Below, in pieces: positions 1,513 to 64,000 of a stretch of 64,000 nt of DNA. The notes beneath the pieces were generated by a model that saw only the letters and a program-made list of their open reading frames with translations, ran no database searches and had not been told where the DNA came from. This stretch comes from Antedon mediterranea (Eukaryota > Echinodermata > Crinoidea > Comatulida > Antedonidae), in assembly GCF_964355755.1 (NCBI RefSeq), contig NC_092677.1:1493001-1557000 (forward strand), given 5' to 3'. The stretch's first letter is position 1. The number at the start of each line of letters is the position of its first letter. A program made the translations under genes and the position numbers.

Positions 1513-4375
1513 ATGATGACTACTTGTTGTTTGCTGCTATTTGTTCTTGTATTTGGTAAGTACCAGGCTTTAATGTTTTGTGGTCAAACTAAGAAAACAT
1601 TTAATTTTGTATTTTTGGTAAACACATTTTCCGCATTGTTTGAAATACAAATAATTATACAGTCATGCGTTTTATGTTATTTCCGGATTATAGATGGTGG
1701 TTCAACTTTATTTTATTTATTTTATTTTATTTCATCAAAACCAACAGCAACGAAAGTTGCCACTTAGGCCTAAAGATATGAAACAGAAAACAGATACAAC
1801 TGTAGTAAAAATGAGCCTATTGAGCACAATTATTGAAAAAAAGAATGCAATGAGTCATAAATGAAGAATAACTATTGAAAAAAATATCAACATTTACATT
1901 TGACTCACTTAAATAGTTGTAAGCCTACAAAGAAGGCAAGCGTGTCTGAAACCCCCTTTTCGAGACATTTACTCTATTAAACGGAACATAAAAAGTGGAC
2001 TTAACTCTGAAATGAGAACAACAGTCGCAACTAAAAAAACAATTGACACTCTTATAAAGAAACATTAAATCAGACACACTTATTCCAAATTTAAGAGGTT
2101 CAAGACAATTAACAACATCAAAACGATTACAAAGAAACCTAACAAACTTATTTTTAACACGTTGAAGCCTTGTGGCATGAATATCAGAGTAAATTTAAAT
2201 TTTCAACAATCATAAAAATAAACTATCAAGTGAAAGTTGTTCCGGTTATCTGTGTTACGTTTCTGTGTGTCCATTTTTGGTCATGACTGGACCACATGGT
2301 TCAGTTGTGTTTGTGTACGACCCGGAAACTACGAGAAAATGCATTTAATAGAATTTATTATTTTTTTTTATTATCATAATTCTGATTTAAATACTTTGAA
2401 GCATAATGTCATATTCACAGACAAATTTAGTTTCAGATACAAGTGCCCAAACACAAGTGACAGTCATTGCTGGTACAGCAAAAGTAGATGACGATGCAAC
2501 AATGACGTGTACTTATACACTTCTACAAGGAGATTCATTGCTACAACTGGCTTGGGCAAAAGCTGATGACAGTGGACAAGCAGTAGGAAGTGCTCTTGTC
2601 ACTACAGGACAACCAACCAATGATCGTTACAGTTTATCTAATAATAATCTTATAATAACTGATGTTGTAAGAGAAGATACAGACAACTATCGTTGTGCTG
2701 TTAGCACCATTGGTGGAAATAGTGCTGAAAACTTTGCTAATCTCACGGTCTATTGTGAGTATGTAGCTAATTATGAATGAGTGTTCAAAGTTTTTGAAAT
2801 GAAAAATATTAAAACTTCAACCCAGCAATAAAATAAGACGTTAATACATTTGCATTTAACTTACATTTTACAATTGTTGTGAAAATGTTGCAATGCATAC
2901 GCAAAATAGGCCTCCTGATTTGTTCGTTATGTAGTCATGAATGAACATGTTTGCATTACCAGATCTTGAAGAACCAGTTCTGAATCCAACAAAGTTGTCT
3001 GTCCACGCAACTGAAACTGTGACATTTACATGTTCTAACCTTATTGGTGTACCAACACCAATTACCGTCACGTGGATCAAAGATGACGTCACACTTGATG
3101 TGTCTGATACGATAAAGTATCCGTCTTCTGATACAACATTGACGATTAATGACGTTGATGTATCAGACGAGAGCGTCTATCAGTGTAGAACAGAGAATGC
3201 TGCTTATAGTGGAACAGATGGAAAACTTAGTAATACTGCCACACTGTCAATAGGTTGGTTGAAATACACATTTTGATAAATAATATATTTTATTGGCATC
3301 ATAGTCGGCCTATAAGTATTTTCTGCATGTCATAATTATAAATGGAATATTCATATTACAGTATATTATGTCATGTGGTAACAAAAATAAAGCACAGGTA
3401 CACAGCGAAAACTGTAAGTTTCAGTTTATTTTAGTTATAAAAGCCATCTTTATAATATGAACGCATGGCGTGTTTTACTAAATATTGCTTGTTTGTTTTA
3501 TATATTTCTTTAGCATTGACGACAACTTCTTTTATATCCGGTAAGTCAACTACACGTAGGTTTTGTTTGCATTGTATTTATTGTACATTTCCGGGTCTTT
3601 CCATTTTCGTAAAGCAAATAAAGGATAGAAATGGAAAGGAATATCCCCGCTTCATCCCCAGGATCTGCATGAGTGATTAAAGGGAAAATAATGATGACCT
3701 TTGTATATTTGAATTGTCAACATTATAAACATGTTTAAAACAAATGGTAACACTAATCCTTCTGTATTATTTGTTCAGTTTTAAGTACAGAAGCTCCAAA
3801 GAGTGAGAATGATTGTAATTCAACAGGTCTTGTTGTTGGAATGACGTTTGTTGGTGTGCTCATTGGATTCATTCTCTGTTTGCTTGTGGGGTTTATCCTG
3901 AACAAAATAAGGAAGTCACATGCACAGGTAAAGTATAATTCAGAAAGTAGAACCAAAAGCAAAAGTTTAGACTTAAAAATAATGACCAAAGGTTTAATGA
4001 AGTACCACATACTTAAGTAATAGAAACTATTTTAACATTAAATATGATGTTTTATTTTGAAGGTACCTACATCGAAAAACGCCACCCAATCAGGGGTAAG
4101 GATGTTACTTCAACTTTAAGTATTCCATTTCACTCGTCGTCGTCATCACCATCATTATTATTACTATTGCCACCAATATATCAATAAAGGTTTACACGAT
4201 TTTCATTCTTCTTTTTGCATGCACTAAACTTTTGTATTTTTTTTAGCAGCAAGAGTATATGACTTATACTGGAGAAACAGATAAAGATACAAACCACACA
4301 TACCAAGATTTACAGAAGAAAGACGATAATCAAGCTGTATATGTAAATGTTAAAGCAAAAAAGGACAAAAAATAA
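1513..4375 (+). CDS. IgR1: V/I-set Ig transmembrane receptor with ITAM-like tail (intact)
   Basis: Seven exons: 1513-1555, 2437-2754, 2963-3253, 3514-3540, 3779-3927, 4063-4095, 4247-4375. All introns are GT-AG with phases 1,1,1,1,0,0, giving 329 residues. Residues 1-14 are a hydrophobic leader (MMTTCCLLLFVLVF). Residues 15-120 form a class-A V-type Ig with Cys (MTCTY), Trp (LAWAK) and the F-strand DTDNYRC. Residues 121-217 form an I-set Ig (FTC, TWIKDD, YQC). Then come a Thr/Ser stem, a conserved juxtamembrane Cys and N-glycosylation sequon (DCNST), a TM helix near 243-267, a basic stop-transfer, and a tail with Y291, Y294, YQDL (306) and YVNV (319). The start is the second of two in-frame Met/GTG candidates, the first being GTG at 1510. 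Likely a plasma-membrane recognition receptor; the ligand is unknown. The family assignment is secure, the function is inferred. Confidence 0.88.
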
Positions 4376-4540
4376 TATACATGTTTAAAATAAAATGAAA
4401 GAAATACATCAGTATTACTATTCTTATTATTAATGGAATATCATTGGTTTGAAACTACAATCACATACATCTTGTTGATTTTATTATAGAAATAAAGAGA
4501 AATCATAACCTGTAGAAAGTGTTTTCTTTCTCTTGATTTA
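4376..4540 (+). other. IgR1 3' UTR: polyA signal and conserved hairpin
   Basis: AATAAA at 4491-4496 is followed by an inverted repeat around GAAAGTGTTTTCTTTC (near 4515-4532). The same arrangement follows the tail exon of IgR2, 3, 4, 5, 6, 9 and 11, so it is a family 3' end. It is not a histone-type stem-loop. Confidence 0.55.
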
Positions 4541-5249
4541 ACTCTTTAACGCGTACAAATTTAATAACAAGAAATGTGAATGCTGATATTTGTATTATCA
4601 TTAACTAAACAAAATATACAAAAGCACTTATAGTGAAATAATATATACCAATATTATATAGCAACATGTGATATAAAGATGAAAACCACAGACTTACTTG
4701 AAAAATGTAAAAAAAAGATATATGTAACTAACAACGATACATTTATTAAAATGTTATTTTCTATTTTTGATTTTTTTGAATTAAAACTTGTTTGTATTAG
4801 ACCGACTTTGATTCGTTACTTTGATTTTAATGTTTGAATGCATTAGTACATTGACATATAATGACATACTAGAATAGACTAGACAATCAATTCTTTTAAC
4901 ACGCGTGTAATTGTATTATTGTTATATAGCATTCTTTAATTTAATTCGCCTCGAGATGTGCTTTTGTTGCTTGCTGCCATATTTTTTCAAAGAGTTTAGT
5001 AATGATCAAATTGATTTTTAAACGTACAAACTAAATTCTAGGGACAAATTGGACGGAGGTTTTAAAGTTATGTGCGATTCAGGTTCATTTCTTTTTTAGG
5101 GAAGACATTAAGAAATACCTATAATAATAATAAATAGTAGTTTGAACTACTTACTGTATAAATACAATTTTTAAAAGGCTAGGTGTTTTATGATTTTATT
5201 TTAAATAATTGATACCATTAAAAAAGAATAATTGTATCATCTTGATTTA
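4541..5249. other. Family intergenic block
   Basis: Non-coding DNA that recurs between gene copies (for example near 9060-9430, 21900-22380 and 43200-43670). It includes the phrase TTGCTTGCTGCCATATTTT. It marks the duplicated unit; no gene is seen. Confidence 0.5.
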
Positions 5250-5561: not shown

Positions 5562-5862
5562 ATGGAGGTGAAAAATAAAAATGCGATGATTGTAAGTACA
5601 AATATTTAAAATATTTTTTCACAAAATGACGCAATCATAAATCGTTAATTGTTATTTTGTTTAATTTAGTTTCAGATACAAGTGGATGCTGCTAAAATTT
5701 GTAAATGTAAGAATGATGTGCACTCCCACATTTTGTACAGGAAAATCGTTGCTTCAACTTGTTTTGTCAAAAGTTGATGGCAGTGGTCAACAAGAAGCTA
5801 GCTAGGCCTTCTTGCAGTACAGAAACTTACAGAGCAAAGATCGTTAAAAAAAATATGCCCTG
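5562..5862 (+). pseudogene. Relic leader and class-A V exons
   Basis: A leader-like exon (5562-5591, MEVKNKNAMI then GTAAGT) has lost the hydrophobic half seen in IgR3, leaving phase 0 instead of 1. The V exon after the acceptor at 5675 keeps only the B-to-C' portion (GKSLLQLVLSKVDGSGQQ) and then runs into GCTAGCTAGGCC, with the invariant Trp replaced. A close copy of this relic exists at 44813-45003. It cannot encode an Ig domain. Confidence 0.7.
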
Positions 5863-5961: not shown

Positions 5962-6578
5962 ATGAAGAGTGTTTCCTTCTTGTTATTGTTTCTTCTATAT
6001 TTACGACGTAAGTAAAATTCACTAAACTAAACCTGTAATTAAGCATTCTCTAAGAGTTAATCAACTTCTTTGATGATTTGAACAGTTATTAACTAAATAT
6101 ATTTTGCTTGTAAATATATCTATTTATAATAGGTTTATGGAACGCCAGGATGGAGATACATAGTATGTCCGTCCTAGCGTGTCATATAGGTTCAAACGCT
6201 AGATATAGTTTAGCTAAATACTGCATGAGGCCTGTAACATCGTGACATACTTATGCTGCTCTACTGTCGCTGTGCTACTAATTGTGCAAATAGTTATATA
6301 TACATATAGGGCTAGTGTTGCCCGAAAGCTCTGCTAACTTTACTGGCTATTTTACTTTATCGTTTTGATTTAGCCTTTTCGCTTTTTTTTGTATCTTTAT
6401 TGAGATCCAGCCACTGACACTCACAGCATTTTCATTTTTTCAGTAATTTGCCTTTTGATTTATATATAATTATATATATAAATTTTAAAATATATATTTT
6501 TAAAATATATATTCGCTCTTGATTTCAATTGAGCACTTTTGCTGCCTCAACGCATCTATATAAATATAATTATCAATA

Positions 6579-6618
<40 letters not shown>

Positions 6619-8723
6619 GTCAGAAATGACCAAAAAACCTCTCTTGACATCAACACAATGTTTAATAAATGGTAGTAGACATACAACAGCACATGTTTAT
6701 AGCAAGCTATCTTTAAAAATGAGTAACAAGCTTTATCTTTTATAACACCAAATCAATGTAGGCCTACCCTAAATTCGAAAAACATGCAATAAAAGTGCAC
6801 AATATGCAGTATTTATAATAATTACTGTATGGTGTTTTTTTTTAGTTTAGGTACACATGCACAATCAACGTCTGTGACAGTGGGTGGTGATACAGTTAAA
6901 GTTGGTGAGGATGCGACGATGACGTGTAATTATACACTTGTATCGGGGGATGTCTTGAATCAACTTGTTTGGTTCAGAGCAGAGGATGATGGTAATACAG
7001 TAGGAAAAAACTCTCTAGTCTCTTTAGTTGAAACAAGCAATGGTCGTTACAGCTTATCTAATGACAAGGATCTTATGATAAGTACTGTTGAAGTAAATGA
7101 TGCAGGCAACTATCTGTGTAGAATTGTAACACAAAATGTTCAAACTGCTGACGACTATGATGAACTTATAGTTCAATGTGAGTTTGTCATTCCTTTGTTG
7201 TTCTTTTTCTAGTGAAAGTTAAATACATAAACTCTGTTTAAACAATCTTTAAATTCCATTAGATAATTATGATTTAAAATTATCAAAATAAAAATAAAGC
7301 GGTGTTTATGGCATTAAATGTAATAGTCAAATTGTCTTTCCACTGCAGATCTTGACACACCAGTTGTGACTCCAGCCCAATTGTCTGCCAAGATGGATGA
7401 AACAGCAGAGTTTTCTACTGTACCTGTTGGATTCCCAACACCAATTACCATCACATGGATCAAAGATGACGTCATACTTGATGTGTCTGACATGAAAAAA
7501 TATCCAAATTCCGATGCAACATTAACGATTAATAATGTAAATGAAACGGATGCAGGAGTTTATAAGTGTAGAGTAGAGAATGCTGCTTACATGGGAGAAG
7601 AAGGAAAACTTAGTAATACTGTTAAACTCATCACAGTAGCAGGTTGGTACGGTTGGAATCAAATAGTTTTAATTGATACAATGAATACATATAAAGACAT
7701 TCTATTCTTTCGGATCGTGTTTTCTCTACCACCAAAAAATTGTTCTTTGTTTCTACACTGATATGAATAACAACGGTGAGCTAACACAACAAAAACGGAA
7801 CCCTTTAGTTGTTTGTTTTTTGTTATTATTATGCAGGTGTTTTATAATATGTACGCATGATAAGTTTCGATAATAATGCTTTTTTATTTATTTAGAATTT
7901 ACGACTACTTCTATATCCAGTAAGTCAACTATAAGTACGTTGCATTGCATTATATTATACATTTCCGGGTTTGAACAAAAAGAATAAAAATAAATGAATG
8001 AAAATAAATAAAATCCGGGTTTGGTTCCCAAATAGACAAGCATGAAAATGTGACAAATCGATATGAGCATCGGTGTGTCTTAAAAGCAACGACGACAATT
8101 AGTAAAAGAAACTACGGTTAATTTCATACAATTATGAAAACACTGACACTGATAATTGTTCAGTTTTAAGTACAGAAGGTCCAAAGAGTGAAGGCGTGTG
8201 TAATTCAACTGGTCTTGTTGTTGGAATGACGTTTGTTGGTGTGTTCATTGGATTCATTCTCTGTTTGCTTGTGGGTTTTATTATCATCAGGAAATCAAAT
8301 CCAAAGGTAAAGTATAATTCTGAACGTAGGAATAAAATGACCAAAGCTTTAATGAAATACCGCACACTTATGTAATAAAAAATATTTTAACATTAAATAT
8401 GATATTTTATTTTAAAGGTACCGACATCGAAAAACACCAACCAATCAGGGGTAAGGATGTTACTTCAACTTTAATTATTCAATTTCACTCGTCGTCGTCA
8501 CTATTGTCACCAATATATCAATAAAGTTTACACGATATTTATTCTTCTTTTTGCATGCACTAAACGTTTGTATTCTTTTTAGCAGCAAGAGTATATGACT
8601 TATGTTGAGGAGACAGATAAAGAAACAAACCATACATACCAAGATTTACAGAAGAAAGACGATAATCAAGCTGTATATGTAAATGTTAAAGCAAAAAAAG
8701 ACAAAAATAATATACATGTTTAA
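5962..8723 (+). CDS. IgR2: class-B V / Cys-less I-set Ig receptor (intact)
   Basis: Exons 5962-6007, 6851-7177, 7349-7642, 7896-7919, 8164-8306, 8418-8450, 8583-8723; phases 1,1,1,1,0,0; 335 residues. The leader is MKSVSFLLLFLLYLR. The class-B V domain has MTCNY, LVWFR and DAGNYLC. The I-set domain has FST where other copies have FTC, so the B-strand cysteine is missing while the F-strand Cys (YKC) remains. The stem reads EFTTTSIS. The TM segment is typical, with a juxtamembrane Cys (VCNST). The tail keeps YQDL and YVNV. A one-base deletion in the terminal A-run (DKN instead of DKK-stop) shifts the stop and adds NNIHV. The first intron (6008-6850) holds AT repeats. Splice sites and frame are clean, so I call it functional. 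Confidence 0.85.
6456..6616. repeat. AT-rich simple repeats in IgR2 intron 1
   Basis: TA-dinucleotide runs (about 6582-6615) and palindromic TATATATTTTTAAAATATAT segments. A small open frame at 6539-6745 only traverses this repeat. Confidence 0.8.
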
Positions 8724-15793: not shown

Positions 15794-17874
15794 ATGGAGG
15801 CGAAAAGTTCAAATGCGATGATTTTCCTGATTATTCAAATTTGTGGATGTAAGTACAAATATTGAAAATATTTCTTCCCTTTTTTCACAAAAAGACGCAA
15901 TCGTAAATTGCAGTATTTATAATAATTACTGTACAGTTACTTTATAGTTTTAGGTACACATGCACAAACAACGTTTGTGACAGTGGGTGCTGATACAGTT
16001 AAAGTTGGTGAGGATGCGACGATGACGTGTAGTTGTACACTTCAAGCGGGAGATGTCTTGAATCAACTTGTTTGGTTCAGAGCAGAGGATGTACTCAAGA
16101 GTTAGGAAACCCTCTGGTATCTTTAGTTGAAACAAGCAATGGTCGTTACAGCTTATCTAATGACAAGGATCTTATGATAAGAACTGTTGAAGTATTGATG
16201 CAGGCAACTATCTGTGTAGAATTGTAACACAAAATGTTCAAACTGCTGACGACTATGATCAACTTATAGTTCAATGTGAGTATAGGCTAATTCATTGTCA
16301 GTGAAGCAATAATCGGTATGGTATAGTACTGTCTTTAGCAGCTTTCGTTCGTTTTTTAATATCATAGTTATACACATAGAGTCTCTAACAATTACTTTTA
16401 AACACTAGGCCTAATGTAAACATGATAAAAATCCTGTGTTGTGCTTGTATAGTAAGATTATTCTTTTGTTTTTCTAAATGTTTCAGAACCTTTTTTTTAA
16501 GCCAGAAGAAGGATTATCCATCATTATAAATGACACAGCAACATTTACATGTACTTTACGTGATGGTATTCCAACACCGATTACCATAACATGTATCAAA
16601 GATGACGTCATACTTGATGTGTCTAATACAGACAAGTATCCGTCTTCTAATGCAGTATTAACGATTAATAAAGTTGCTAAAACAGACGAGGGAGTTTATC
16701 AGTGTAGAGCTGAGAATGCTGCTTACAGTGGAATATACAGGAAACTTAGTAATACTGCCACACTGTCAATAGGTTGGTGGGAATAAACATTTTGATAAAT
16801 AATATATTTTATTTGCATCATAGTATAAATATTTTCTGCATGTCATAATTATAAATGGAATATTCATATTACAGTATATTATGTCATGCGGTAACAAAAA
16901 TAAAGCAGATCTACAGCAAAATCTGAAAGTTTGAGTTTATTTTAGTAATAAAAGGCCTTTTGTAATATGAACGCATGACGTGTTTTATTAATATTGCAAT
17001 TTTCTATTTCTTTAGCATTAACGACAACTTCTTTTATATCCAGTAAGTCAACTACACGTAGATTTTGCTTGCTTGCATGCATTGTATTGTAAATTTCCGG
17101 GATTTTGCTTTTGCGAAAAGAAAAAAGGGATAGCAACGGGAAGGGATATCCCCCGCCCCATCCCCATGCTCTGCATGGGTGCTTAAAAGGAAAAATAATG
17201 ATGACCTTTGTATATTTGTCAACACTACATTATTTTAAACATGTTTAAAACACATGGTAACACTGATCCTTCTGTATTATTTTGTTTAAATTTTTTTTAA
17301 ATACAGAAGTTCCAAAAAAAGAGAATGATTGTAATTCAACTGGTCATGTTGTTGGAATGACGTTTGTTGGTGTGCTCATTGGATTCATTATAATTATGTT
17401 TGATTGTGGTTTTTATCCTCAGCAAAATAAAGAAGTCACATGCACAGGTAAAGTATAATTCAGAAAGTAGAACCAAAAGCAAAAGTGCTGACTTGAAATG
17501 ACCAAAGGTTTAATGAAATACCGCACACTTAAGTAATGGAAACTATTTAAACATGAAATTTGATTTTAAAGGTAGGCCTACCTACATCAAAAAATACCAA
17601 CCAATCAGGGGTAAGGATGTTACTTCAACTCTAATTATTCAATTTCACTCATCATAATTATTATTATTACTATTGTCACCAATATATCAATAAAGGTTTA
17701 CACGATAATTCTTTTTTTGCATGCACTAAACTGTTGTATTATTTTTAGCAGCAGGCGTATATGACTTATACTGAAGAGACAGATAAAGAAACAAACCACA
17801 CATACCAAGATTTACAGAAGAAAGACGATAATCAAGCTGTATATGTAAATGAAGCAAAAAAAGACAAAAAATAA
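15794..17874 (+). pseudogene. IgR3: class-B V receptor, pseudogene
   Basis: Exon remains: leader 15794-15848 (MEAKSSNAMIFLIIQICG, intact, phase 1), V 15954-16275, I-set 16487-16772, stem 17016-17042, TM about 17307-17447, linker 17572-17610, tail 17749-17874. Compared with IgR2 and IgR5 the V exon lacks 4 bases after residue AED and 1 base after EV (322 instead of 327 nt), giving an early TAG. The I-set Trp is Cys (TITCIKDD). The usual TTCAG acceptor of the TM exon is lost and its frame is shifted inside the helix. The linker has two extra codons, and the tail reads YVNE instead of YVNV. Multiple independent lesions argue against mere sequencing error. Confidence 0.8.
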
Positions 17875-47080: not shown

Positions 47081-47120
47081 TTCAGACAGCTGAGGCTTGC
47101 CATAAATCTGGGGTGGGTGC

Positions 47121-48432
47121 CCACATGATCTGCATCATAAATGCTTAAAAAGTAAAATATGACCTTTGTATGTTTGTCAACATTATACATTATTGTAAAA
47201 CACATGAAAACACTGATCCTTATCTATTAACGAGTGCGGGCGTATATGCATTCAACTGGTCTTGTTGGAATGACGTTTGTTGGTGTGCTCATTGGATTCA
47301 TTATTTGTTTCCTGTGGGTTTTATTATCAGCAAAAGTAACAATAAATAAAAAAAAAAGAAGTCAAAGGTAAAGTATATTCTGATTCATAAAGTAGAATTA
47401 CACAAAAATAGTAAAATGCTCAAAGGTTCAATGAACTACGGTACACTGCACAAGTAATGAAATGTGTTAACATTAAGTTCTTGTTTATGTTTTATTTTAA
47501 AAGGTATCTACATCAAAAAACAACAACAAAATAGGGGTAAGGATACCATACAACTTTCAATACTAATTTTCACTCGTCATTATCTATATATAAAATTACG
47601 TAAGGAAAAAATTTGGTAAATCGCGCCTTACTTCTAGAATTTCTACTCGATGGTATATAAAGTTGGTTCGTACGTTCGGTACTGATTGTAACCACCTGAT
47701 GTAACCCTGTTTACAAATTAAATTGAGTTAGATAATTAGTTATTGACAATTAAAAAGAATTTAGGTTCAACGATTTGCCCCAAATAGGGGTGTTTTCCGA
47801 GTGTAGTATACATTGTCTAATGGATGTCCATCTTGAAAAATACCCGCACACAATAATACTATCTCCTTCTACGATAATTGTGTTTAACAACAACAAAAAC
47901 CGTTTGAACAGCTCGAGTACAGCATCATAATGTTGAAGAAAGGCCGACTTTCTTTTTAAAAAAAAATACTATTTTTATATATTTAATATATATGTTTATA
48001 CAAATGTATTGATTTTCGATGAATGGAACATTCCAATTTGTTGAAGCTTCAAATTCCTCGGTAAATAGAGGGCGCATTATTTCGTAAGAAGACACTTTAC
48101 AAATAATGGGAAATGTGCTTGTTCACAAAAAAAGTAATATACAGTATCATGGAGGAAGTAAAAAAAAATGTAAATCAATTTGCATTCAGAACCATCAGTG
48201 TCCTGTATATACTATTGAGAGACAAGAGTGGAAGTATCATTTTGGATTTTCAGATTGTTAGGCGTGACCAGCATGTCCTTCTTAACAGAAGTAATGTCGA
48301 TATGTGAGTGTGCACTAATTTTCCTGATTTTCCAAAGCGACTGTAAGTAGAAACTTAATTGTCATGGATGTATAGGGTCCTACTATTATTTCAACATAGA
48401 CTATAAGACTAGACTGGCTATGGACGGTGACG
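47121..48432 (+). repeat. Segmental duplication, copy 2 (with decayed TM and linker exons)
   Basis: Copy of 33361-34740. It carries the same decayed TM exon (about 47240-47366; 5' part missing, CCTGTGGG frame break), linker exon at about 47503-47536, Helitron 5' end at 47583-48038 and the class-C leader region. Here the leader is followed by intact IgR11 exons. Confidence 0.85.
47583..48038 (+). mobile_element. Helitron 5' end, truncated (copy 2)
   Basis: Starts A|TCTATATATAAAATTACG and breaks off near GAATGGAACATTCC at the same place as 34241. It was therefore present before the segmental duplication. Confidence 0.8.
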
Positions 48433-51400
48433 GCGTAACCAATTTTTATTGTATTGTTTGTATTAATTGATTTGTTTCATTAAATACATTGCCACTCATT
48501 CATTTTTGTGTATTTAGTTATAAATGGTCAAAATCCTGTTGTCAGTGTACAAGATACCACTGTTAAATTAGGTGAAGATGCTATTATCTCCTGTAGTTAC
48601 ACACTCAGTGGTACTAGTACTATACAGGCTGTTCAATGGTTCAATAGTAATTCAGATGGAGATGAGTTAGACATCCTTGTTAATACTGCAGATACAAATC
48701 CAAATGGTAGATATGCAGCTGATACCTCACAACCTGGAGTTACTACTCTTACCATTGCAAACACAGTGTTGTCTGATGATGGATACTATCTATGTAGAAT
48801 TGTTGATTCATCTCTTATCCCTGGTAATCAACATGGAAATCTTACTGTTCAGTGTAAGTATTAAAATGTGTCTCAATAACTATATTTTAAATATACTTTA
48901 AATAATGCTGTATAACACTACTACTAACACTAACAAGATAAGTATCTACTATATATTTTGAAAGAAAGACCATTTATTACAGATCTAGAAAACCCTGTTT
49001 TGGAATCCAACACATTATCTGTCATGATAAATGGCACCGCAACATTCACGTGTACTAAACTTATCGGCAAACCAACACCAATTACTGTCAGATGGACAAA
49101 AGAGAATGTTCCACTTGATGGTTCTGATGCAGACAAATATTCATATTCTGATGCAACATTAAATATTAATAAAGTTGATGAAATGGATGAAGGAAGTTAT
49201 CGTTGTGTAGCAGAGAATGCTGCTTACAGTGGAGATGAAGGAAAAGAAAGTAATCCTCTCAAACTTTCAGTGGGTTGTAAGTAAAATTTATTTATGTAGC
49301 TTTAACATGGATATATTATTATTATTCTGATACAGAAAAATATCCATCTTCTGATGCAACATTAATTATTAATAAAGTGAATGAAATGGATGAAGGGAGT
49401 TACCAGTGTGTAGCAGAGAATGCTGCTTATAGTGGAGATGAAGGAAAACGTACTAGTAATCCTCTCACTATCAGTTGGTTGGTTGCAATAACGTTTTTAT
49501 AACTAACGATACAATAATATCATATTTTATTGAGAGCATAGGTATATTTTATTGAACCAAACAGTCTATCATAATTAGACGGAATATTCCAACAATTATG
49601 TATTACTAGATGGTACGCTCGCTTCGCTCGCGTACCATCTAGGTCGTGCCCACAGATGGTTCTCGAATACATAATAATTTCAGCGTTAAAAAACTGGCGA
49701 TTTCAAATGTACGTAGGCTACCGCAGGACAATAATACATGTCGTTTACAGGAACGAATAAATAGACACTGTGATTTATGTACTCAACTAAAATTAGCACC
49801 CTGGGAATTACTTCCGAAAGAGAAACTTGTCACAAAATAAGACCAATTGTTTAAGTAAAATTTAAACAAACTTAAAGATGTATTGTCCCTTTGACTAATT
49901 CCAAAAAAATAAAAAATAATAGATTTCGAAAAAAGGTGGGTCATTTTGAAGTATCATAATAATTATTAACTATCACCAAAAATTTTTCGAAAAAAAAAAA
50001 ATTTAACTGAAATACAGACGGTTTTTTGTTTAAAAAATTACTTTGACTTCCAGTCAAAGTTTTCAATCAAAACATATCCCATAATGAAACGCGCCTGTTT
50101 GGCTACTCTGTATGCATAATCATAAAACTTCCTCATGATCTGTGTGAAAATACCTTCTTAACCGTGACAAGTTGTAAACAATCCTAATTTAGCATATGCA
50201 TAATGCGTACTCATGGTTTGAAATCTTTGTTTACTTTCGCTCATGACGATTTTCCAGATGAAATGTAATCAAACTAATTTACCTGTTAATTACGTAAACT
50301 TGTTGTTTTTGGCTCAAATTTTCGACTTAAAGTGAATAACTTTAATATTAATTTGATATGGCCACTTTAAATTTAGAATATTTTGACCTTCATTTTTTTG
50401 TGTTTCAAGGGACAATACATCTTTAATTTGTGTTTTGTATGTAACATTAGGGTTGAGGGATGGGGAAGAGGATGGGTGCAAAGAGGAACAATGTTAAAAT
50501 ATATTCTTTATCCATTTAGTAACGAAATATTAATTGCTTTCATGTTTTACAAATAATATACCACTAAACACAGTAAAACATTGCGATGTAATACTTTGTT
50601 GAAACTATCACCGTCCTAGTCGATTGAAATAGTACAGCACATGTAACGATACATCACTACGACGTGTATATGTTTATAATATAATGTAAAACAATTTGTG
50701 AAAACCACCTCTATTCGGGGAAAATCATAAATTCGATTTAATCGTCAATAAATATTAAATTATCTAACTCAACTTAATTAGTAGGCCTAATGGTTTTCAA
50801 TTGTTTCTTGAGCCAATTCATACTTAAGTTGGTTCCTACCCTACCCACCAAAGTTGTTCTGCGTTTAGGGCATGTGATGTACCGTAGGCCTATTCTTAGT
50901 ACAGGCTATATGTGACATTTATCCTATGTAACCTTGAAAAAATTCTAATAAAAGGTCTTTTGGTATTTTCTTGTAGCTTTAGGTGTGAATAAATACCAAA
51001 ACATTTTTGCAGCGTTCTAGTTGCTGCTCCTGGGTTTAAAAAGACAAATGTGGTGTCTACATCTATGGTTTAGTGGTCTCTACTGGTTTTACAACGCTAC
51101 TCATGCCAGTGAGGGAAAGGTGATGATGTGGGTGGTTTAACTGCAATAATAAAGATTTGTACATAATATACGGCGAGTGAAAACGCTAGCCCATTATCCG
51201 TTTAAAAAAAAATTATATCCAACATCTGCAGCACAGATTGAAAACAAAAATGGATCGAATTTCGAGTATACAGTACTGTACTTGCCTTTACGACGCCTGA
51301 GGGAATAGACACTTGTGAAACAGAGATTGGAATGTTCCATTCATCGCAAATCAATAATTTTTTAAAGAAAATCGGCCTGTCTTCAACATTATGATGCTGT

Positions 51401-54400
51401 ACTCTAGCTGTTCAACCAGTTTTCAGCTATCTATATATAAATTTACGTAAGGGCAAAATTCGATAAGTCTCGGTTAATTTATAGAATTTTTACTCGATGG
51501 TATATAAAGTTGGTTCATACTTTCGGTACTGATTTTAACCATCTGACATAACCCTGTTTACTAATTAAACTGAGTTAGGTAATTAGTTATTGACGAATAA
51601 AACGAATTTAGGTTCAACGATTTGCCCCAAATAGGGGTGTTTTCCGATCGTGGTATACACTGTCTAATGGATGTCCATCTTGAAAAATACCAGCCACAAA
51701 AATGCGAGGAGGCTTCGCATTTTCCTACCTCCTCCTACGATAATTGTTTTTAATAGCTGAAAACTGGTTGAACAGCTAGAGTACAGCATCATAATGTTGA
51801 AGAAAGGCCGATTTTCTTAAAAAAAATACTATTTTGATAGATTTAATATACGATTATACAAATGTATTGATTTGCGATGAATGGAACATCCCAGAGTTTG
51901 GTTTAACACAAGTAGGTAAATTTATGAGCCCTTGGTTTAACACATACGGTAGGTAAATATATGGGCCCTTTGAGAATAAACTTGCAATACTTTGACAATA
52001 CTGTAAATACTTATTAACTATTTTTGGTCGTCATTTGAATCGAACATTTCTTACTGTGAATGTTCATACTGTTAGATGTAATATAACAAGGCCAACAGCC
52101 ATTAAGTCGCGTGCTACAATGCATAGTGATACCGGACCGACAGACAGACCGACAGACCGACAGACAGACCGACCGACCGACATAGTGAACTATACTGACC
52201 GAAATTACTGAACATGTTTAAAAATGTTGAAATGTTTAAAAACATTAATTTTTTTTTAATTTACACGTGCGTAGCCTGTCACTTTCGACGTGCTCGTATA
52301 ACGTAATTTCGAGTTGAAAAGTAAGTCAAGAAAACAGAAATCGGGCAAAAAGTGTGCGCAATAACATTAACGCGCAGTGCGCGCGCAAAAATATGCGCAC
52401 TCATGGCAATTTTGTAAACGCTTAAAATTGCCTGAAATGTACTCTTATTTCATCGAAAATAAATTTTGAAAATGTTAAGCGCGCTTGCGCATGCGTTACA
52501 TGCGCTACGCACGTAATTGTATTGCCATATGATGATTTATGCCCTGAAATTTATGAGTACCAAATTTGATTTAATTGTGATTCATTGTTGTGAAGATATG
52601 ATTACAAACGTGATTTCGTTAAATCGTGCGTAGACCGCGTAATTTTTTATTGCGCACCGTGAAAACATAACCACATTGATTCCTGGCCATAAGGAATATA
52701 CTGTGAAAAATTGACCTAGCTAGATTAAACTGATATCAAGATAAGGTCAGAAAGCGATAAAACGCATAGTGATACCGGACCGACAGACAGACAGACAGAC
52801 AGACCGACAGACAGACCGACAGACAGACAGACAGACCGACCGACCGACATAGTGAACTATAGAGTCGCTTCCACGCGACTAAAAATATATACAAATAAAC
52901 TTTATTACTGAGATTGTGGTTAGGCTCTACTGATATATAAACACATTATTATATACAAATAAACTTTATACTGACCGTTCCTTCTCAACGTTTGTATTAA
53001 TTAATAATTACCAATAATATAAACGTCATAGTGGTGTATCATGACATGTACTTTGATATTTCAATCGATTATGACAGTGACAGTTTTAACAAAGTATTAA
53101 ATCGCAAATGTTTTACTTTATTTAGAGGTATATTATTTATAGGCCTATAAAACATATTTCGTTACTGAGTGGATAAAGAATATATTTAAAAATTGTTCCT
53201 CTTTGTACCTATCCGCTTTCCCATCCCTCAACCCTAATGTTACATACAAAACACAAATTGGGTTTCTTTAAATTAGTCCAAATAAAAAATTTGGACTCAT
53301 TTTGTGATAAGTTTCTCCTTCGGAAGTAATTCCCAGGGTGCTAATTTTAGTTGACTACATAAATCATCGTGTCTATTTATTCGTTTCTGTAAACGACAAT
53401 GTATTATAGTCCTGCGGTACGTACATTTGAAATCGCCAGTTTTGTTACGCTGAAATTACTGTGTATTCGAGAACCATCTGTGGGCACGACCTAGATGGTA
53501 CGCGAGCGAAGCGAGCGTACCATCTAGTTAAAAACAATTATCGTAGGAGGAGATAGGAAAATGCGAAGCCTCCTCGCATTTTTGTGGCGGGTATTTTTCA
53601 AGATGGACATCCATTAGACAGTGTATACCACGGTCGGAAAACACCCCTATTTGGGGGCAAATCGTTGAACCTAAATTCGTTTTAATCGTCAATAACTAAT
53701 TATCTAACTTAATTTAATTAGTAAACAGGGTTACATCAGGTGGTTAAAATCAGTACCGAAAGTACGAACCAACTTTATATACCATCGAGTAAAAATTCTA
53801 GAAGTAAGGCGCGAATTACCGAATTTTGCCCTTACGTAAATTTATATATAGATGCGGTAATGGACATAAAGCACAACTACACAGTTTAATTATAAAAGGC
53901 CTTTTTATAATATAGAACAAGACAATATATAAAACCAATAGATGCACTGACTATGTTTAAATAACATAATCATAAGTACTTTCTATTTCTTTAGCATTGA
54001 AAACACCTTCTTCTACATCCAGTAGGTCAACTACACGTACGTTTTGTTTGTTTGCATTGCACTAATTGTTTCCTATTTTTAGGTCATATAAGTTTGCGAA
54101 TAAAAAATATGACTATTGTATATTTGTTATGTCACAATCACATGGTAACTCTGATCCTCTTGATTTGTAAATCGTTCGTAAACAGAAGTTCCAAATAGTA
54201 AGGATGTATGTACTTCAACTGGTCTTGTTGTTGGAATGACGTTTGTTGGTGTCCTCATTGGATTCATTATCTGTTTGATTGTGGTTTTCATCATTAGCAA
54301 AATAAGGAAGATAAAATCACAGGTAAAGTATAATTCAGAAGGTAGAAAAAAAATAGTAAAATAGTCGAAGGTTTAGTGAAATACCATCACACGTAATGGC

Positions 54401-54733
54401 AAACGTATTATCATTCAATTTACTTGTTGAAGTTTTATTTCAAAGGCACCGACATCAAATAATGACAACCAATCAGGGGTAAGGAGACTAAACTTCAACC
54501 TTAATTATTCGCTTTCACTTTGATCATTACCATCATTGTTACCAATACACAATAAAGGTTTGCATGATTGTAATTCATCTTACTTTACTGTTGTATTTTT
54601 TTAGCAGCAGGCGTATATGACTTACACTGGAGAGACAGATAAAGAAACAAATCACACATACCAAGATCTACAGAAGAAAGACGATAATCAAGCTGTGTAT
54701 GTGAATGTTAAAGCAAAAAAGGACAACAAATAA
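48294..54733 (+). CDS. IgR11: class-C V / RWTK-type I-set Ig receptor (intact, transposon in intron 3)
   Basis: Exons 48294-48342, 48518-48853, 48983-49276 (or 49273 with a weaker donor), 53995-54021, 54186-54322, 54446-54478, 54605-54733; phases 1,1,1,1,0,0; about 334 residues. The leader is MSICECALIFLIFQSD. The class-C V domain has ISCSY, VQWFN and DDGYYLC. The I-set domain reads TVRWTKENVPLD with FTC and YRC. The stem is ALKTPSSTS, the TM exon starts EVPNSKDVCTSTG (Cys kept, sequon NST changed to TST), and the tail has YMTY, YQDL and YVNV. Intron 3 is 4.7 kb because of nested Helitrons, yet all exons remain open. A possible optional exon lies at 49336-49473. Closest sibling: IgR9. Confidence 0.83.
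49336..49473 (+). pseudogene. Extra half I-set exon in IgR11 intron 3
   Basis: A second copy of the D-to-G part of the I-set exon (EKYPSSDATLIINKV ... SYQCVAENAAYSGDEG). It is open, 138 nt, with an AG (TGATACAG) before and a GTTGGT after, both in phase 1. It lacks strands A-C and could only encode half a domain. It may be a duplication scar or a cassette exon. Confidence 0.45.
49876..50422. mobile_element. TTAA-flanked MITE inside the outer Helitron
   Basis: Inverted termini AGATGTATTGTCCCTT, with TTAA directly outside both ends (49872-49875 and 50423-50426). TTAA targeting suggests a piggyBac-type non-autonomous element. No transposase frame. Confidence 0.65.
51430..53527 (+). mobile_element. 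Nested Helitron, plus orientation
   Basis: Starts A|TCTATATATAAATTTACG and ends with the complete hairpin and CTAG|T. It sits in TTTCAGCTA^TTAAAAAC, whose uninterrupted form occurs in every unit of the 9.8-15.3 kb array. It holds one repeat unit, interrupted by a GACA-rich element. Confidence 0.88.
52087..52880 (+). mobile_element. Helentron-like element with (GACA)n arrays, copy 2
   Basis: Starts CAAGGCCAACAGCCATTAAG and ends CGCTTCCACGCGACT, the reverse of the copy at 43951. The empty site GATGTAATATAAAAATATA is present in the related Helitron near 36100. Insertion is within an A run without clear duplication. Confidence 0.7.
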
Positions 54734-55807: not shown

Positions 55808-58800
55808 ATGGAGGAGAAATGTAAAGGTGCGATAGTTCTTCTGATTGTTCAACTTTGTGGTTGTAAGTATGAATATTGAAAATACCTGCAATGATGAATG
55901 ATGTAACCAATCCTAGATAAAAATGTATATTTTTGTAATCATGTTTGAATCGAAGTTGTTGCATTTAAAATGTAGCCTGGCAATTTCGGTTTTTTATTTG
56001 TTTTATAAATGCTTTTAAGTTTGCAATCTTTTTCGTTCATAATTATTTTTTAATAATCAACGTGAACAAATACTAGTTTGGATACAACTAGATTATTTAA
56101 ACACATTTGTTTTTATTTTCTTATTTGTTAAAGTTACAAATGGTCAAACTGAGCCTGTAGTCAATGTGCAAAATGCTACTGTTAAATTAGGTGAAGATTC
56201 TGTTATCACATGTGAATACACACTCATTGATTCAAGAACACTTCAGGCTGCTCAATGGTACAATAGCACATCAACAGGAGATAGGTTAAACCTTCTTGTT
56301 AATAGTGCTGAAACGAATCCAAATGGTAGATATGCAGTTGATACCACACAAACTGGTGTAGCCACTTTCACCATTGCAAACACAGTGCTGTCTGATGAGG
56401 GATATTATCTATGTAGAATTATTGATTCACCTGCTATTGAAACTGGTGAAGATTATGGAAAACTGACTGTTCAATGTTAGTACGAATTGTTATATCATTT
56501 AACAAGACCTATTCACAATTTAAAATAATCTTAATTATTATAATATTTACTTTAAGGTTTTAGGTTAGTCCAAAAAGCTTTGCAATATACCTTATCGTTT
56601 ATTTATTTATAGAACTTGTTTTGTATCTCCATTGAGATCCAGCCGGTGATACCCATTTTTTAGTAGTTTGCCTTTTGATTTATGTTTAAATTTAATATTT
56701 TCACATACCTGTTAATGTTCGCCAGTGGCTAACGAATAATAATCAATCAATTTAAATAGTATGCATAAGCAAGAAAATAAATAGATTTGAAAAAAGGCTA
56801 ACCAGTGAAGAGAGAAATTACTATTCTTTCCTGGGCTTTCAAACAAAAGCATTAATTAGGCTAATCAAAGAGAAGTTATCCCTATTGAGGGTACATTGTT
56901 TTCAATTAATATACTGATTGTTGATCAGGTTTCATAAAACCAAACACTTTTCATACAAAATGGAAGACCATTAAAAGTACAGTACCGTACAATAAGAAGA
57001 TAAAACAAGGTCCTGTATGATAAAAGTAACCTTTTTTGTTCTTTTGCCTTTACAGATCTTGAAAACCCAGTTCTGATTCCAACAGGATTGTCCGTTAACA
57101 CAACTGAAACTGTGACATTTACGTGCTCTGATCTTATTGGTATACTGACACCGATTACCATCACATGGATCAAAGATGACGTCATACTTGATTTGTCTGA
57201 TACACAAAAGTATCCAACTTCTGATGCAACATTAACGATTAATGACGTTGATGAAACAGATGAGGGAGTTTATCGCTGTAGAGCAGAGAATGCTGCTTAC
57301 AGTGGAACAGATGGAAAACTTAGTAATACTGCCAGACTGTCAATAGGTTGGTGGGAATACATTTGTTATAACTTGTTGATACAAATAAAATCGTATTTTA
57401 TTGGGATCATTCATAGTATACAGTAGGTATTTTTTTGTAGGACCAAAGAGCAGGTCATAATTATGAATGGAATATTCAAGTTCAATGTTATGTGGTAATG
57501 ACAATACACAACGAAAACTGAATGTTTTTAGTTAACTTTAATTATAACAAGGCCATAAATACATATCTGCAGTCGCGTGCTCAAATTTGAATTAGTGTTT
57601 GCCAACATTTAATGTTTACTGACCAACTGACCGACATAGTGAGCTATAGAAGAGTCGCATTGCACGCGACTAAAAAGCGTTTTTATAATATGAACGTTTG
57701 ACGTGTTTTACTAATATTGCTTGTTTCTCTATTCTTTTAGCATCAACGACAACTTCTTTTATATCCGGTAAGTCAACTACACGTAGGTTCTCTATGCTTG
57801 CATTGTATTTATTGTAAATTTCCGGATTTGTGCATTTTCGTTAAGCATATAAATGATATAAATGGGAGGGAATATCCCCCGCCTCACCACCATGATCTGT
57901 ATCACGCATTAAAAGGGACAATAATAATAAAATAATGACCTTTGTATATTTTTGTCAACACTACGTTATTGTAAACATGTTTATTGTTTTGTTTATTGGT
58001 ATATATATAAGTTGTTACAAAGATTCTAACTGGGTAATTACAATTACATTAAAATGCATATCCTTGGTGATGAATGAATTGAAGTTTGACCGAATTATTT
58101 CCATGCAAAAGACATATTCTAAGTGCAATTTCGGTGGTTTATGCTTTGTTTGATTATTATTGCCTAATTATTTTTATAATCTAAATAAACGTGAACATAT
58201 AATAATTTAATGGATAAAACATGACTAGCTGCTGGAGGGAATGAGCTCGTCAGACAGACCGGGACCACAGCATAGACAAGAAAGAAAGGAACAACTGGCT
58301 CCAGTTGGGAGAGGCCTTTGCCCAGCAGTACGACGATATGTGCTGAGGAAAGAAAGAAATATTAGCTGTACCATTCAGTTGGATGATGGGGTTTTGCTTA
58401 ATATTGTTAGTTTTATTTGTTTTTATTTTCTTTCAGCTACAAACGGTCAAACCTCTCCAGTAGTCAATATACAAGATGCTACTCTTAAATTAGGTGAGGA
58501 TGCTGTTATTAACTGTGATTACACACTCAGTGATACAAGAACTCTACAGGCTGCCCAATGGTATACTAGCACATCAACAGGAGATCAGTTAAACCCTATT
58601 GTTGATAGTGCTGGAACAAATCCAAATGGTAGATATACAGTTGATACCTCACAAACTGGTGTAGCTACTCTCACCATTGTAAACACAGTGTTGTCTGATG
58701 ATGGATACTATCTATGTAGAATTATTGATTCACCTGCTGCTGAAACTGGTGAAGATTATGGAAAAGTTACTGTTCAATGTAAGTATCGAAAATTGATAAG

Positions 58801-61295
58801 AAATATGAGAAAAACAAAATCCCATGCAAGATCATTAATTTATTTTGCCTTTACAAACTAGTTCTGAATTAAATAGAATTCTCTGTTAGTACAACAAAAA
58901 CGGAAACTTAGTAATACATCCACACTGTCGGTAGCTTGGTTGGAATAAACTGTTTATGCAATAATATCATTATTTATAGTTTATCCTGTAATGGAAATAA
59001 AGCACAGGTACACAGTGAAAACTGGAAATTTCAGTTTCAGGTATACTTATAATAATGAATGTTTTATTATCATTGCAATTGTTTATTTTCTATTTCTGTA
59101 GCATTATCGACAACTCCTTCTATATCCAGTAAGTCAACAACATGTAGGTTTTATTTGCTATTTGCATTTTTATTTACGGGTTTATGTTTTTTATGTCCGG
59201 GTTTTTGCATTTGTGTTAACCATATAAAGGATAGAAATGGGAAGGGATATCATCTGCCCCATCCCCATGATCTGTATCACGCCTTAAAAGGGACAATAAT
59301 GATGACCTTTGTATATTTTTGTCAACACTACGTTATTGTAAACATGTTTATTGTTTTGTTTATTGTTATACATATATAAATTGTACAAAGATTCTAACTG
59401 GGTAATTACAATTACATCAAAATGCATATCCTTGGTTATGAATGAATTGAAGTTTGACCGAATTGTTTCCATGCAAAAGACATATTCTAAGTGCAATTTC
59501 GGTGGTTTATGCTTTGTTTGATTATTATTGCCTAATTATTTTTATAATCTAAATAAACGTGAACATATAATAATTTAATGGATAAAACATGACTAGCAGC
59601 TGGAGGGAATGAGCTCGTCAGACAGACCGGGACCACAGCATAGACAAGAAAGAAAGGAACAACTGGCACCAGTTGGGAGAGGCCTTTGCCCAGCAGTACG
59701 ACGATATGTGCTGAGGAAAGAAAGAAATATTAGCTGGACCATTCAGTTGGATGATGGGGTTTTGCTTAATATTGTTAGTTTTATTTGTTTTTATTTTCTT
59801 TTAGTTACACACGGTCAAACCTCTCCAGTAGTCAATATACAAGATGCTACTCTTAAATTAGGTGAGGATGCTGTTATTAACTGTGATTACACACTCAGTG
59901 ATACAAGAACTCTACAGGCTGCTCAATGGTACAATAGCACATCAACAGGAGATGAGTTAAACCAACTTGTTAATAGTGCTGGCACAAATCCAAATGGTAG
60001 ATATACAGTTTATACCACACAAACTGGTGTGGTTACTCTCACCATTGTAAACACAGTGTTAGAAGATGATGGATACTATCTATGTAGAATTATTGATTCA
60101 CCTGCTGCTGAAACTGGTGAAGATTATGGAAAAGTTACTGTTCAACGTAAGTATCGAAAATTGATAAGAAGTATGAGAAAAATAAAATCCCATGCAAGAT
60201 CATTAATTTATTTTGCCTTTACAAACTAGTTCTGAATCAAATAGAATTCTCTGTTAGAACAACAACAACAAAAACGGAAACTTAGTAATACGTCCATACT
60301 GTCGGTGGTAGGTTGGTTGGAATAAACTATTTATGCAATAATATCATTGTTTATAGTGTATCTTGTAATGGAAATAAAGCACAGGTACACAGTGAAAACT
60401 GGAGGTTTCAGTTTTAGTTATAACAGGTATATTTATAATAATGAATGTTTTATATCATTGCAATTGTGTTTTTTCTATTTCTGTAGCATTAACGACAACT
60501 TCTTCTATATCCAGTAAGTCAACAACATGTAGGTTTTGTTTTTTATTTACGTAAATTTCAGGGTTTTTTTTCATTTGTGTTAAGCATAAGGATAGAAATG
60601 GGAGGGGATATCCCAAGCCCCATGATCTGTATCAGGCCTTAAAAGGGACAATAATGATGACCTTTGTTTATTTTTGTCAACAGTGCATTATTGTAAACAT
60701 GTTTAAAACACATGGTAACACTAATCCTTCTGTATTTTTCAGTTTTAAATACAGAAGTTCCAAAGAGTGAGAGCGTATGCAATTCAACACGTCTTGTTGT
60801 TGGAATGACGTTTGTTGGTGTGCTCATTGGATTCATTATCTGTTTGATTGTGGGTTTTATTATCAGCAATATAAGGAAGTCAAAGTCAAAGGTGAAGTAT
60901 AATTTAGAAAGTTGACCCAACAGCAAGAGTATAGGAATAAAATGACCAAATGAAATACCGCCTACTTTTGGTAATGGAAACGTATTTTAACATTTAATAT
61001 GATGTTTTATTTTAAAGGCACCTACATCGAAAAACGCCAACCAATCAGGGGTAAGGATGCTATACTTTAATTATTCACTTTATTCATCATCATCATCATT
61101 ATTATTTTTACTATTGTCACCAATATATTATCAATAAAGGTTTACACTCTTTTCATTCTTCTTTTTTCATGCAATAAACTCTATATTATTTTTGTACAGG
61201 CGTATATGACTTATACTGGGGAGACAGATAGCCACGCATATCAAGATTTACAGAAGAAAGACGATAATCAAGCTGTATATGTAAATGTTGAATAA
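55808..61295 (+). CDS. IgR12: expanded four-Ig receptor, V-I-V-V-TM (intact)
   Basis: Predicted exons 55808-55862, 56134-56475, 57056-57346, 57741-57767, 58437-58778, 59102-59128, 59805-60146, 60487-60513, 60743-60891, 61018-61050, 61200-61295. All are open and the phases agree (1 through the stems, then 0,0), giving 576 residues. The leader is MEEKCKGAIVLLIVQLCG. Three class-C V domains (ITCEY, INCDY, INCDY; AQWYN or AQWYT; YYLC) flank one I-set domain with TWIKDD. Each repeated module is stem plus V; dead 3' scraps of I-set exons remain at about 58895-58935 and 60270-60315 without donors. Only one TM and one tail exon exist, so the modules belong to a single gene. The tail is shortened (TDSHAYQDL, YVNVE) but keeps both motifs. 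Some modules could be skipped by splicing. Confidence 0.78.
57548..57671 (+). mobile_element. Internally deleted Helentron-like element, copy 3
   Basis: Starts CAAGGCC and ends GCACGCGACT, the same ends as the copies at 43951 and 52087, but only 124 bp long. Located in IgR12 intron 3. Confidence 0.65.
58240..58350 (+). pseudogene. LINE ORF2 C-terminal scrap (module 1)
   Basis: A frame reading ARQTDRDHSIDKKERNNW then LQLGEAFAQQYDDMC-stop resembles the extreme C-terminus of non-LTR polyproteins (W..LGEAFAQQ). It lies in the intron before the second V exon. An open frame from 58241 that joins this scrap to the V exon is accidental. Confidence 0.4.
59608..59718 (+). pseudogene. LINE ORF2 C-terminal scrap (module 2)
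   Basis: Second copy of the scrap at 58240, carried by the tandem duplication. Confidence 0.4.
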
Positions 61296-61318
61296 AAAAG
61301 GACAACAAATATATAATA

Positions 61319-62222: not shown

Positions 62223-63017
62223 CAAGTTGGAAGGGTAGTTTTGTGATTTTGGGGAGCGGTGGTTGTCGAATTGGTCGAAGGGAATTGGGATGTTATGTCT
62301 ACATTTAGATACCTTAGGAATTAGTTTAGCTGGTACTATCAATATGTACTGGCCCATACTGGTCAAAAATTAGGGTTAACATAAACAGTTCCAAAACAAC
62401 GCGGTCACAGTCGGTAAAAATGACAATTTTAGTTGAGACGTGTTCGTGTTAGCTTACCAGAGGGCGCTCTTAATTCCTAATCCAGATCAAGGAATTTAAC
62501 AGTCCTTTGTCAGACTCCAGTGTGGATCATACAGGGCGTTAATACTATTTTTGCTTATTGAGTACTCCGCCGTTATAAATAATGATCGGTTGCTTGCTGC
62601 CATTCTTTCTTTCACAATTTAGTAAGTATACTGAACCATCATATTATATTCACTAGCAGGCCTACATACTATTGAAAACAGTAGGTGCAGAATCAATTAA
62701 ATGTAAGGAGAATGGGACTACTCGTGTGAAATGTGCGGGGTACGATTGAGAGTAGGATTTATTTAAATCTTTGTAAGTTTCTCTTATCGAGTATGTTTGT
62801 TAATTATTACATAATTGCACTTAAGCCTCAGCGTACAAAATCAAAACTATCTCAAAAGTTACTTCTGACATAAGATTGAGATATTTAATGCACGAATCAC
62901 TTATAGCCAGCTATTCCATTTTGGTATTTTCTGAACAGTGACATAAACGTTTTAAAAAAATTACTTTCTTCAGTATATCCCTAATATCTATCTATACAAA
63001 AAAATTAGTACTTTCAG
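62223..63017. other. 5' flank of IgR13, leader not found
   Basis: It includes CGGTTGCTTGCTGCCATTC (family intergenic phrase) near 62587, but no leader exon of any of the four classes. GTAAGT donors are present near 62772, with stops upstream in frame. Confidence 0.4.
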
Positions 63018-64000
63018 ATACAATTGCAGAAACACCAGTGACAGTGGATACTGCAACAGCCAATGAGTTTAACAATGTAACAATGATGTGCACTCCATCA
63101 TTTCTGCAAGGAGATTCATTGGTTCAACTAATTTGGACAAAAGCTGATGAGAATGGTAATCAAGTAGGAACTGCTCTTGTCACTTCTACAGGACTAGCAA
63201 CCAATGGTCGGTTCATTTTATCCAATAATAATCTTATAATAACTGATGTTGAAAGAGGTGATGCAGACAACTATCGTTGTGCTATTAGCACCAGTTTAGG
63301 AAATCCTGGTGAAGACTTTGCAGAACTCACAGTCAATTGTGAGTAACATTTTGATGAATTTTCAAAATTTGCATTTATTTTTTCTTACAGTTAGTGGAGC
63401 ACTGTGGTGTGTAAAAAGTACTAGGAAGGTAAATCAGACTCGTTTTTGCGGGAGAAGTGGCGTACCCCCTACAAACATACACACTTAGTGGAGTCTGGCC
63501 CAAACGCTAAAAAATGGAGATGGGCACCACGGCCGTTAGCATTAGCTTTGGTTTCGACTTTATTTTTACCTTTTTTACCCTTTCTTACAGTAATACAGTA
63601 AATCTTTTAATAATAATGTTTCTGCACATGTAAATTGCCTGAGTTTTAGCAGAAACATTTTTTCAAACATTTTGAAATTTGCATTGTTGATATTGAAAAT
63701 AAGATAAAAAAATAACAATAATAAAATAATTAAAAACAAGATGTTTTCTGCAAAAAATAAATGATTATCTAATATTTTATGAAAATAGTTACTGAACATG
63801 TAAGGTAATTGCATTTCATAATTAGATATACTTTAACATTGTTAAATATAAATTTTCCATACATAGATCTTGACAAACCAGCTGTAAGTCCAACAAAGTT
63901 GTCTGTCAATATAGATGAAACTGTGCCATTTACATGTTCTCCACTCAATGGTTTGCCAACACCAATTACAATCAGATGGATCAAAGATGGCGAAGAATGT
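63018..64000 (+). CDS. IgR13: class-A V / I-set Ig receptor, partial (window end)
   Basis: V exon 63018-63338 (phase 1-1, 321 nt) with MMCTP, LIWTK and DADNYRC. I-set exon starts at 63867 and is open to the window end (PFTCSPLNGLPTPITIRWIKD). The IR in ITIRWIKD combines features of the RWTK and TWIKDD classes. No leader exon was found upstream, so the start is unknown, and the stem, TM and tail exons lie outside the window. Both exons are undamaged. Confidence 0.75.

Follow-up and report, generated by a model that had tools for sequence, protein, structure and literature searches.

What kind of locus is the tandem array of immunoglobulin superfamily (IgSF) genes found in the genome of Antedon mediterranea, how far does it extend, and what might its products do? 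The array occupies positions 1513-64000 of the window, the whole stretch of 64,000 nucleotides analyzed here (C8:1493001-1557000, C8 being contig NC_092677.1). Using the exons of the first gene one by one as tblastn queries on the window, we mapped 13-14 same-strand units with the exon order leader, V, I-set (I), stem in some copies, transmembrane (TM), linker, and tail. The original prediction had counted 13 copies, seven of them intact; the copy number held, but only four units (A, B, D, and E) are demonstrably complete, with three more probably so. In these four, spliced translation verified canonical splice sites and the phases 1-1-1-1-0-0 (phase 1 after the leader, V, I, and stem exons; phase 0 after TM and linker) and gave proteins of 327-332 residues, bearing out the proposed common exon plan with fixed phases. 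Paralogous copies match at E values down to 1e-49, far too low for chance open reading frames, which were therefore ruled out. A local assembly artifact was likewise ruled out for the window array because its copies lie ~7-30% apart.

The encoded proteins are type I IgSF receptors in their anatomy, with a signal peptide, V-set and I-set domains bearing the canonical cysteines and tryptophan, and a TM segment. Pfam scored the V-set at 42.5 bits (cut-off 26) and the I-set at 68.4 bits, and the V exons share an invariant C26, W41, and C88. A structure model of the V exon (predicted local distance difference test [pLDDT] 94.4) found its closest folds in CD155, CRIg, PD-1, TCR V, TIGIT, and amphioxus VCBP3 (Z 12.3-13.2, root-mean-square deviation 1.7-2.6, 92-104 residues aligned), all within 1 Z unit and thus tied. 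As modeled, the V exon has a standard V-set fold, a likeness that tells nothing about function. The model of the I-set exon (pLDDT 57.5) was not used. Sequence searches of the PDB returned generic IgSF matches only, mostly to neural adhesion proteins (Robo, Dscam, and contactin).

At the cytoplasmic end, the tail carries YQDL-x9-YVNV, a pair resembling an immunoreceptor tyrosine-based activation motif (ITAM). Of 34 close tails, 33 have YxDL and 32 have YVNV; the spacing YxxL-x6-12-Yxx[LIV] is kept in 32 and is also retained in diverged copies on C8 and C6. None of 33 TM exons has a charged residue in the TM core, GxxxG spacing is conserved in nearly all of them, and the juxtamembrane segment has an invariant cysteine. 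This combination is consistent with receptors that would be self-sufficient and possibly disulfide-linked.

The window is the right-hand portion of a single receptor cluster at C8:1.11-1.58 Mb, and its 13-14 units are only part of the locus. Searching the genome with the tail exon recovered 54 tail exons at E <1e-10, all on the + strand, between C8:1.116 and 1.577 Mb. With ~5 further matches that were short or frameshifted, the total reaches ~59 tail exons over 0.46 Mb, and a TM-exon search gave the same picture of the cluster's extent. Weak solitary TM and tail matches were also seen at C8:8156327-8157626 (- strand), 6.6 Mb away from the cluster. The assembly comprises 354.4 Mb in 18 contigs, and every hit lay on contigs C1-C11, pointing to ~11 chromosomes that make up nearly the whole assembly. 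On C2, an ordered run of 12 Hox homeodomains (7.83-8.21 Mb) was classed by eye as Hox1-8, one Hox9/10, and three Hox11/13. A set with Hox9/10 and three Hox11/13 types is typical of echinoderms and hemichordates, and this content places the genome in the Ambulacraria. With ~11 chromosomes, it is probably that of a crinoid, crinoids having n=11. Most echinoderms have a 2n of 36-46 (PMC3308324).

The V exons fall into three classes (V1, V2, and V3), with 25-44% protein identity between classes, which are interleaved along the array and have class-specific leaders (V1, MMTTCCLLLFVLVF; V2, MKSVSFLLLFLLYLR; V3, M[AS]ICECALIFLIFQSD). I-set exons of the V2 type, the kind attached to V2 exons, no longer have the first Ig cysteine (7349-7642, 24128-24415, and 29558-29845). 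The I and TM exons group by V class, and one V3 gene at C8:1178835 has an I exon that differs by ~10% from the I exons of V1 genes. The tail shows no V-class grouping (distance 0.076 within and 0.075 between classes, p = 0.54). The intron immediately 5′ of the tail keeps the V-class signal (0.166 vs. 0.262, p = 0.0025), which in the same comparison is absent from the tail (p = 0.19) and from the 60 bases past the stop codon (p = 0.59). Because the tail and its 3′ flank are blind to V class and the preceding intron is not, tails have moved from one class to another; the simplest reading is a series of exchanges whose breakpoints lay close to the tail exon. The tail is ~6% diverged and its flanks 17-26%, which argues that the tail is held by selection.

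Mean nucleotide identity was lowest in the Ig exons (I, 0.78; V3, 0.83, and V1, 0.86, both within class) and highest in TM (0.89) and tail (0.92), the ranking that had been predicted. Mean dN/dS by the Nei-Gojobori method (NG86; 4-34 exons per class, from copies outside the cluster middle at C8:1.29-1.49 Mb) was 0.86 for V1, 0.69 for V2, 0.74 for V3, 0.66 for I, 0.83 for TM, and 0.34 for the tail. The original prediction had named values near 1 in all copies as counting against it; dN/dS was not near 1 in all parts, and the tail value indicates constraint by purifying selection. A parsimony count on per-exon trees, with loops delimited from the V structure model, gave 1.06 for loops BC, C′C″, and FG against 0.65 for the framework (Fisher p = 0.026) and 1.49 for FG alone (p = 0.028), in a test that was chosen after sliding windows had been viewed, is uncorrected, and ignores recombination. 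These ratios are suggestive of faster change in loops resembling complementarity-determining regions.

More distant tails, with 48-59% identity, were located at C8:0.62-1.09, 1.21, 1.36, 1.59, and 1.63 Mb and at C6:1.005 and 1.030 Mb. Of these diverged loci, three on C8 and one of the two on C6 were read in detail. L074 and L075 on C8 carry V, I, a cysteine-free third domain with a weak PKD/Ig match, TM, and the tail NQTYQDLQHKEEESAYVNV, and L073, also on C8, has a third-domain-like exon, TM, and tail. At L071 (C6:1005153-1010000, - strand), an in-line series of FN3-type exons, two of them confirmed by Pfam, leads into a related TM and tail (TYQELQIKDDTHQVYVNV). If, as we infer, the exons at these loci are spliced together, the TM-tail module serves different ectodomains.

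We consider it fairly probable that the cluster is a germline-diversified, fast-turnover family of type I receptors of an ambulacrarian, probably a crinoid, with immune recognition as its most likely role. The birth-and-death IgSF receptor cluster with a conserved signaling end that had been predicted is supported and placed, through Hox content, in an echinoderm or hemichordate relative. Carried on the I-set, the canonical V-set tip, drawn from three divergent classes, would bind varied ligands, and the juxtamembrane cysteine and TM GxxxG repeats would probably drive dimer formation. Engagement would lead Src-type kinases to phosphorylate the tail, whose YQDL-x9-YVNV could then recruit SH2 proteins, either a Syk-like kinase with tandem SH2 domains or, at YVNV, adaptors of the Grb2 type; these phosphorylation and SH2 steps are borrowed from known immunoreceptor pathways. 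Genes would come to differ from one another through duplications, both in tandem and of blocks, through loss, and through swapping of the tail together with the 3′ end across V classes. Elsewhere, genes of this kind with ITIM/hemITAM tails are candidate allorecognition receptors in Botryllus and Hydractinia (PMC12065747). Several observations weigh against this interpretation. A strict ITAM (YxxL/I-x6-12-YxxL/I) is present in just 2 of the 34 tails, and an immunoreceptor tyrosine-based inhibitory motif (ITIM; [SIVLT]xYxx[ILV]) in none. Overall V dN/dS is below 1, site-level selection is weak, with its loop test set after the windows were viewed, and haplotypes left unmerged may account for some of the near-identical block copies.

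Could the cluster instead be a histocompatibility (allorecognition) locus? V domains would then bind allelic self ligands, perhaps each other, and the tail would set fusion or rejection by coelomocytes. Allograft rejection and allogeneic reactions of coelomocytes are both on record for echinoderms (PMC9763293), and since echinoderm allorecognition exists, the Antedon locus is a testable candidate; no paper in the literature searched names the genes behind this rejection. Hydractinia Alr (41 genes; PMC11999971, PMC12065747) and Botryllus FcoR (53 loci; PMC12065747) are likewise clustered IgSF families with tyrosine-motif tails. Nectin/TIGIT-type adhesion receptors are also among the closest V folds. 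Yet the close tails are all of one type, with no inhibitory/activating pair, and a crinoid would be solitary, with natural tissue fusion rare, leaving this explanation unlikely in our view. Because the animal is probably solitary, pathogen or altered-self recognition would be the likelier main role, and an immune role is more likely than allorecognition specifically.

The Ig domains of Alr are described as unusual, whereas the Antedon family, in another phylum, has canonical V-set cysteines and tryptophan and one uniform ITAM-like tail for three V classes. What the two share, judging from descriptions of Alr, is a cluster of germline genes for type I IgSF receptors that combine V-set and I-set domains with a tyrosine-motif tail (PMC11999971, PMC12065747). 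FcoR is similar in that its many genes are clustered, encode a V-type Ig at the N terminus followed by TM and a tyrosine tail, and have a second set on another chromosome. However, FcoR proteins are 520-610 aa long, with sushi and two C2 Ig domains, canonical ITIM/hemITAM motifs varying by gene, and paired FF partners (PMC12065747), whereas the Antedon proteins are ~330 aa with a single tail type, and the complete window copies have just V and I exons before TM and no sushi.

The paired Ig receptor genes of vertebrates (KIR, LILR, NITR, CEACAM, and FcR-like) also form IgSF clusters that evolve by birth and death, their ectodomains diverse and their signaling ends conserved. Unlike vertebrate paired receptors, with their charged-TM activating and ITIM inhibitory members, the Antedon genes have neither a charged TM residue (33 exons) nor an activating/inhibitory tail split (34 exons). 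Closer in descent, V-type Ig transmembrane genes (V-C1 and others) are reported from the sea urchin, in the same phylum or a close one; compared by description only, that review mentions no large cluster with the Antedon exon plan or tail (PMC3308324). Amphioxus VCBPs share the V-set fold (VCBP3 domain 1, Z 12.5) and come from another invertebrate deuterostome. VCBPs are secreted and have a chitin-binding domain; the complete Antedon models consist of a single V, I, TM, and tail. In the literature searched, we found no named family with this tail, as had been supposed, and nothing relevant to a published claim of echinoderm Ig kappa genes.

A further concern is that the family is real and its size inflated, with blocks offset by ~134 kb representing a second haplotype in the scaffold and much of the remainder being decaying pseudogene. 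In line with this, C8 segments 133-135 kb apart match at 94-99%, and several copies are broken. The L058 query against the 134-kb block matched a dispersed repeat. However, some blocks are present in a third copy or more (e.g., near 1.276, 1.389, and 1.522 Mb), and where there are at least three copies, these cannot be two alleles. The tail also appears to be under purifying selection, and the divergence among the window copies leaves the window array unaffected by the haplotype question. We therefore regard an inflated family size as rather improbable. Very unlikely is a family that serves adhesion or recognition outside immunity, for instance in neurons, gametes, or tissue sorting, and that has grown as other cell-adhesion IgSF families have, for although neural adhesion proteins dominate the PDB sequence matches, generic as these are, and tandem arrays occur in adhesion families too, rapid birth and death, numerous broken copies, tail exchange, and tandem YxxL/YxxV tails are unusual among neuronal adhesion genes.

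Table 1. Receptor gene copies and relics in the window (positions counted from the first base of the window)
Feature	Position	Strand	Exons or parts	Evidence and state
Copy A, V1 class, complete	1513..4375	+	leader 1513-1555, V 2431-2754, I 2963-3253, stem 3514-3540, TM 3779-3927, linker 4063-4095, tail 4247-4375	331-residue spliced translation, AG/GT throughout, stop-free
V1 exon relic separating A and B	5713..5802	+		tblastn, 53% identity, 30 aa
Copy B, V2 class, complete	5962..8723	+	leader 5962-6007, V 6851-7177, I 7349-7642, TM 8164-8306, linker 8418-8450, tail 8583-8723; stem exon not recognized	327-residue spliced translation, stop-free
Copy C, V2 class, broken	15953..17871	+	V and TM frameshifts	split tblastn matches
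Copy D, V1 class, complete	18562..21541	+	leader 18562-18601, V 19324-19650, I 20173-20463, stem 20703-20729, TM 20951-21099, linker 21229-21261, tail 21413-21541	331-residue spliced translation, stop-free
Copy E, V2 class, complete	22983..25582	+	leader 22983-23028, V 23628-23954, I 24128-24415, stem 24736-24762, TM 25008-25156, linker 25289-25321, tail 25454-25582	332-residue spliced translation, stop-free
Copy F, V1 class, broken	26732..30966	+	V and tail frameshifts, 2-kb insert between V and I	split matches
Copy G, V1 class, broken	32078..33776	+	no tail	tblastn
Orphan leader exon, V3 type	34599..34647	+		MVICECALIFLIFQSD then GTAAGT, as in the leaders of I and J
Copy H, V1 class	37045..39713	+	intact V, I, TM, linker, tail; neither leader nor stem recognizable	spliced frame open; sites of the exons found all canonical
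Copy I, V3 class	40887..42831	+	leader 40887-40935, V 41133-41459, I 41563-41853, stem ~42112-42138, TM to 42435 (acceptor not identified), linker 42544-42576, tail 42703-42831	open frame
Relics between I and J	44830..47539	+	V1 piece 44830-44931, TM piece 47249-47314, linker 47504-47539	tblastn
Copy J, V3 class	48294..54733	+	leader 48294-48342, V 48518-48853, I 48983-49276, second partial I 49296-49475, TM to 54322 (acceptor not identified), linker 54446-54478, tail 54605-54733	tblastn and spliced frame
K/K′/K″, three V3 heads before one TM-tail	56133..61301	+	heads at 56133, 58439, 59804; single intact I 57055-57345, stems, TM 60742-60897, linker, early-stopped tail keeping both tyrosine motifs	
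Copy L, V1 class, runs past window end	63014..64000	+	V 63014-63340, I from 63866	

Beyond the window, the TM exon of copy L is frameshifted, and the next tails lie at C8:1558168 and 1559464. Between copies B and C, seven head-to-tail copies of a 797-base unit, 98-99% identical, form an array (9766-15340), a mobile or repeat unit having been amplified here recently; the same unit is dispersed genome-wide (~2,750 first-look candidates). The insert in the V/I intron of copy F (27245-29338) has 198-base inverted arms, 91% complementary and made of 16-base minisatellite units, and is like a terminal-inverted-repeat element. An open frame at 34679-35233 (- strand) resembles a fragment of a reverse transcriptase of the long interspersed nuclear element type. 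Two other IgSF groups were seen elsewhere in the genome. Single-exon genes (L010, L011, and L014; C2, C3, C7, and C11), many of them in local groups, encode receptors of ~640 aa in which three Ig-like domains are followed by a TM and a long tyrosine-rich tail; they constitute a second, intronless IgSF expansion. A regular array of V-set exons with a period of ~1.05-1.13 kb (C8:5122566-5140872, - strand) may belong to a single gene that has many such exons.

A hydroid and a sea squirt are already known to have large germline clusters of IgSF genes with tyrosine tails, and an ambulacrarian case would add an independent instance between these and vertebrates. It is a bolder and doubtful proposal that the cluster is the gene complex of echinoderm self/non-self recognition; its genes would recombine three V repertoires with one common ITAM-like tail, and the TM-tail would also be used on FN3-type ectodomains on another chromosome. 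The mapped genes are now available for studies of expression, polymorphism, and segregation. Moreover, the decoupling of the tail from V class shows a conserved signaling end persisting while the binding heads turn over.

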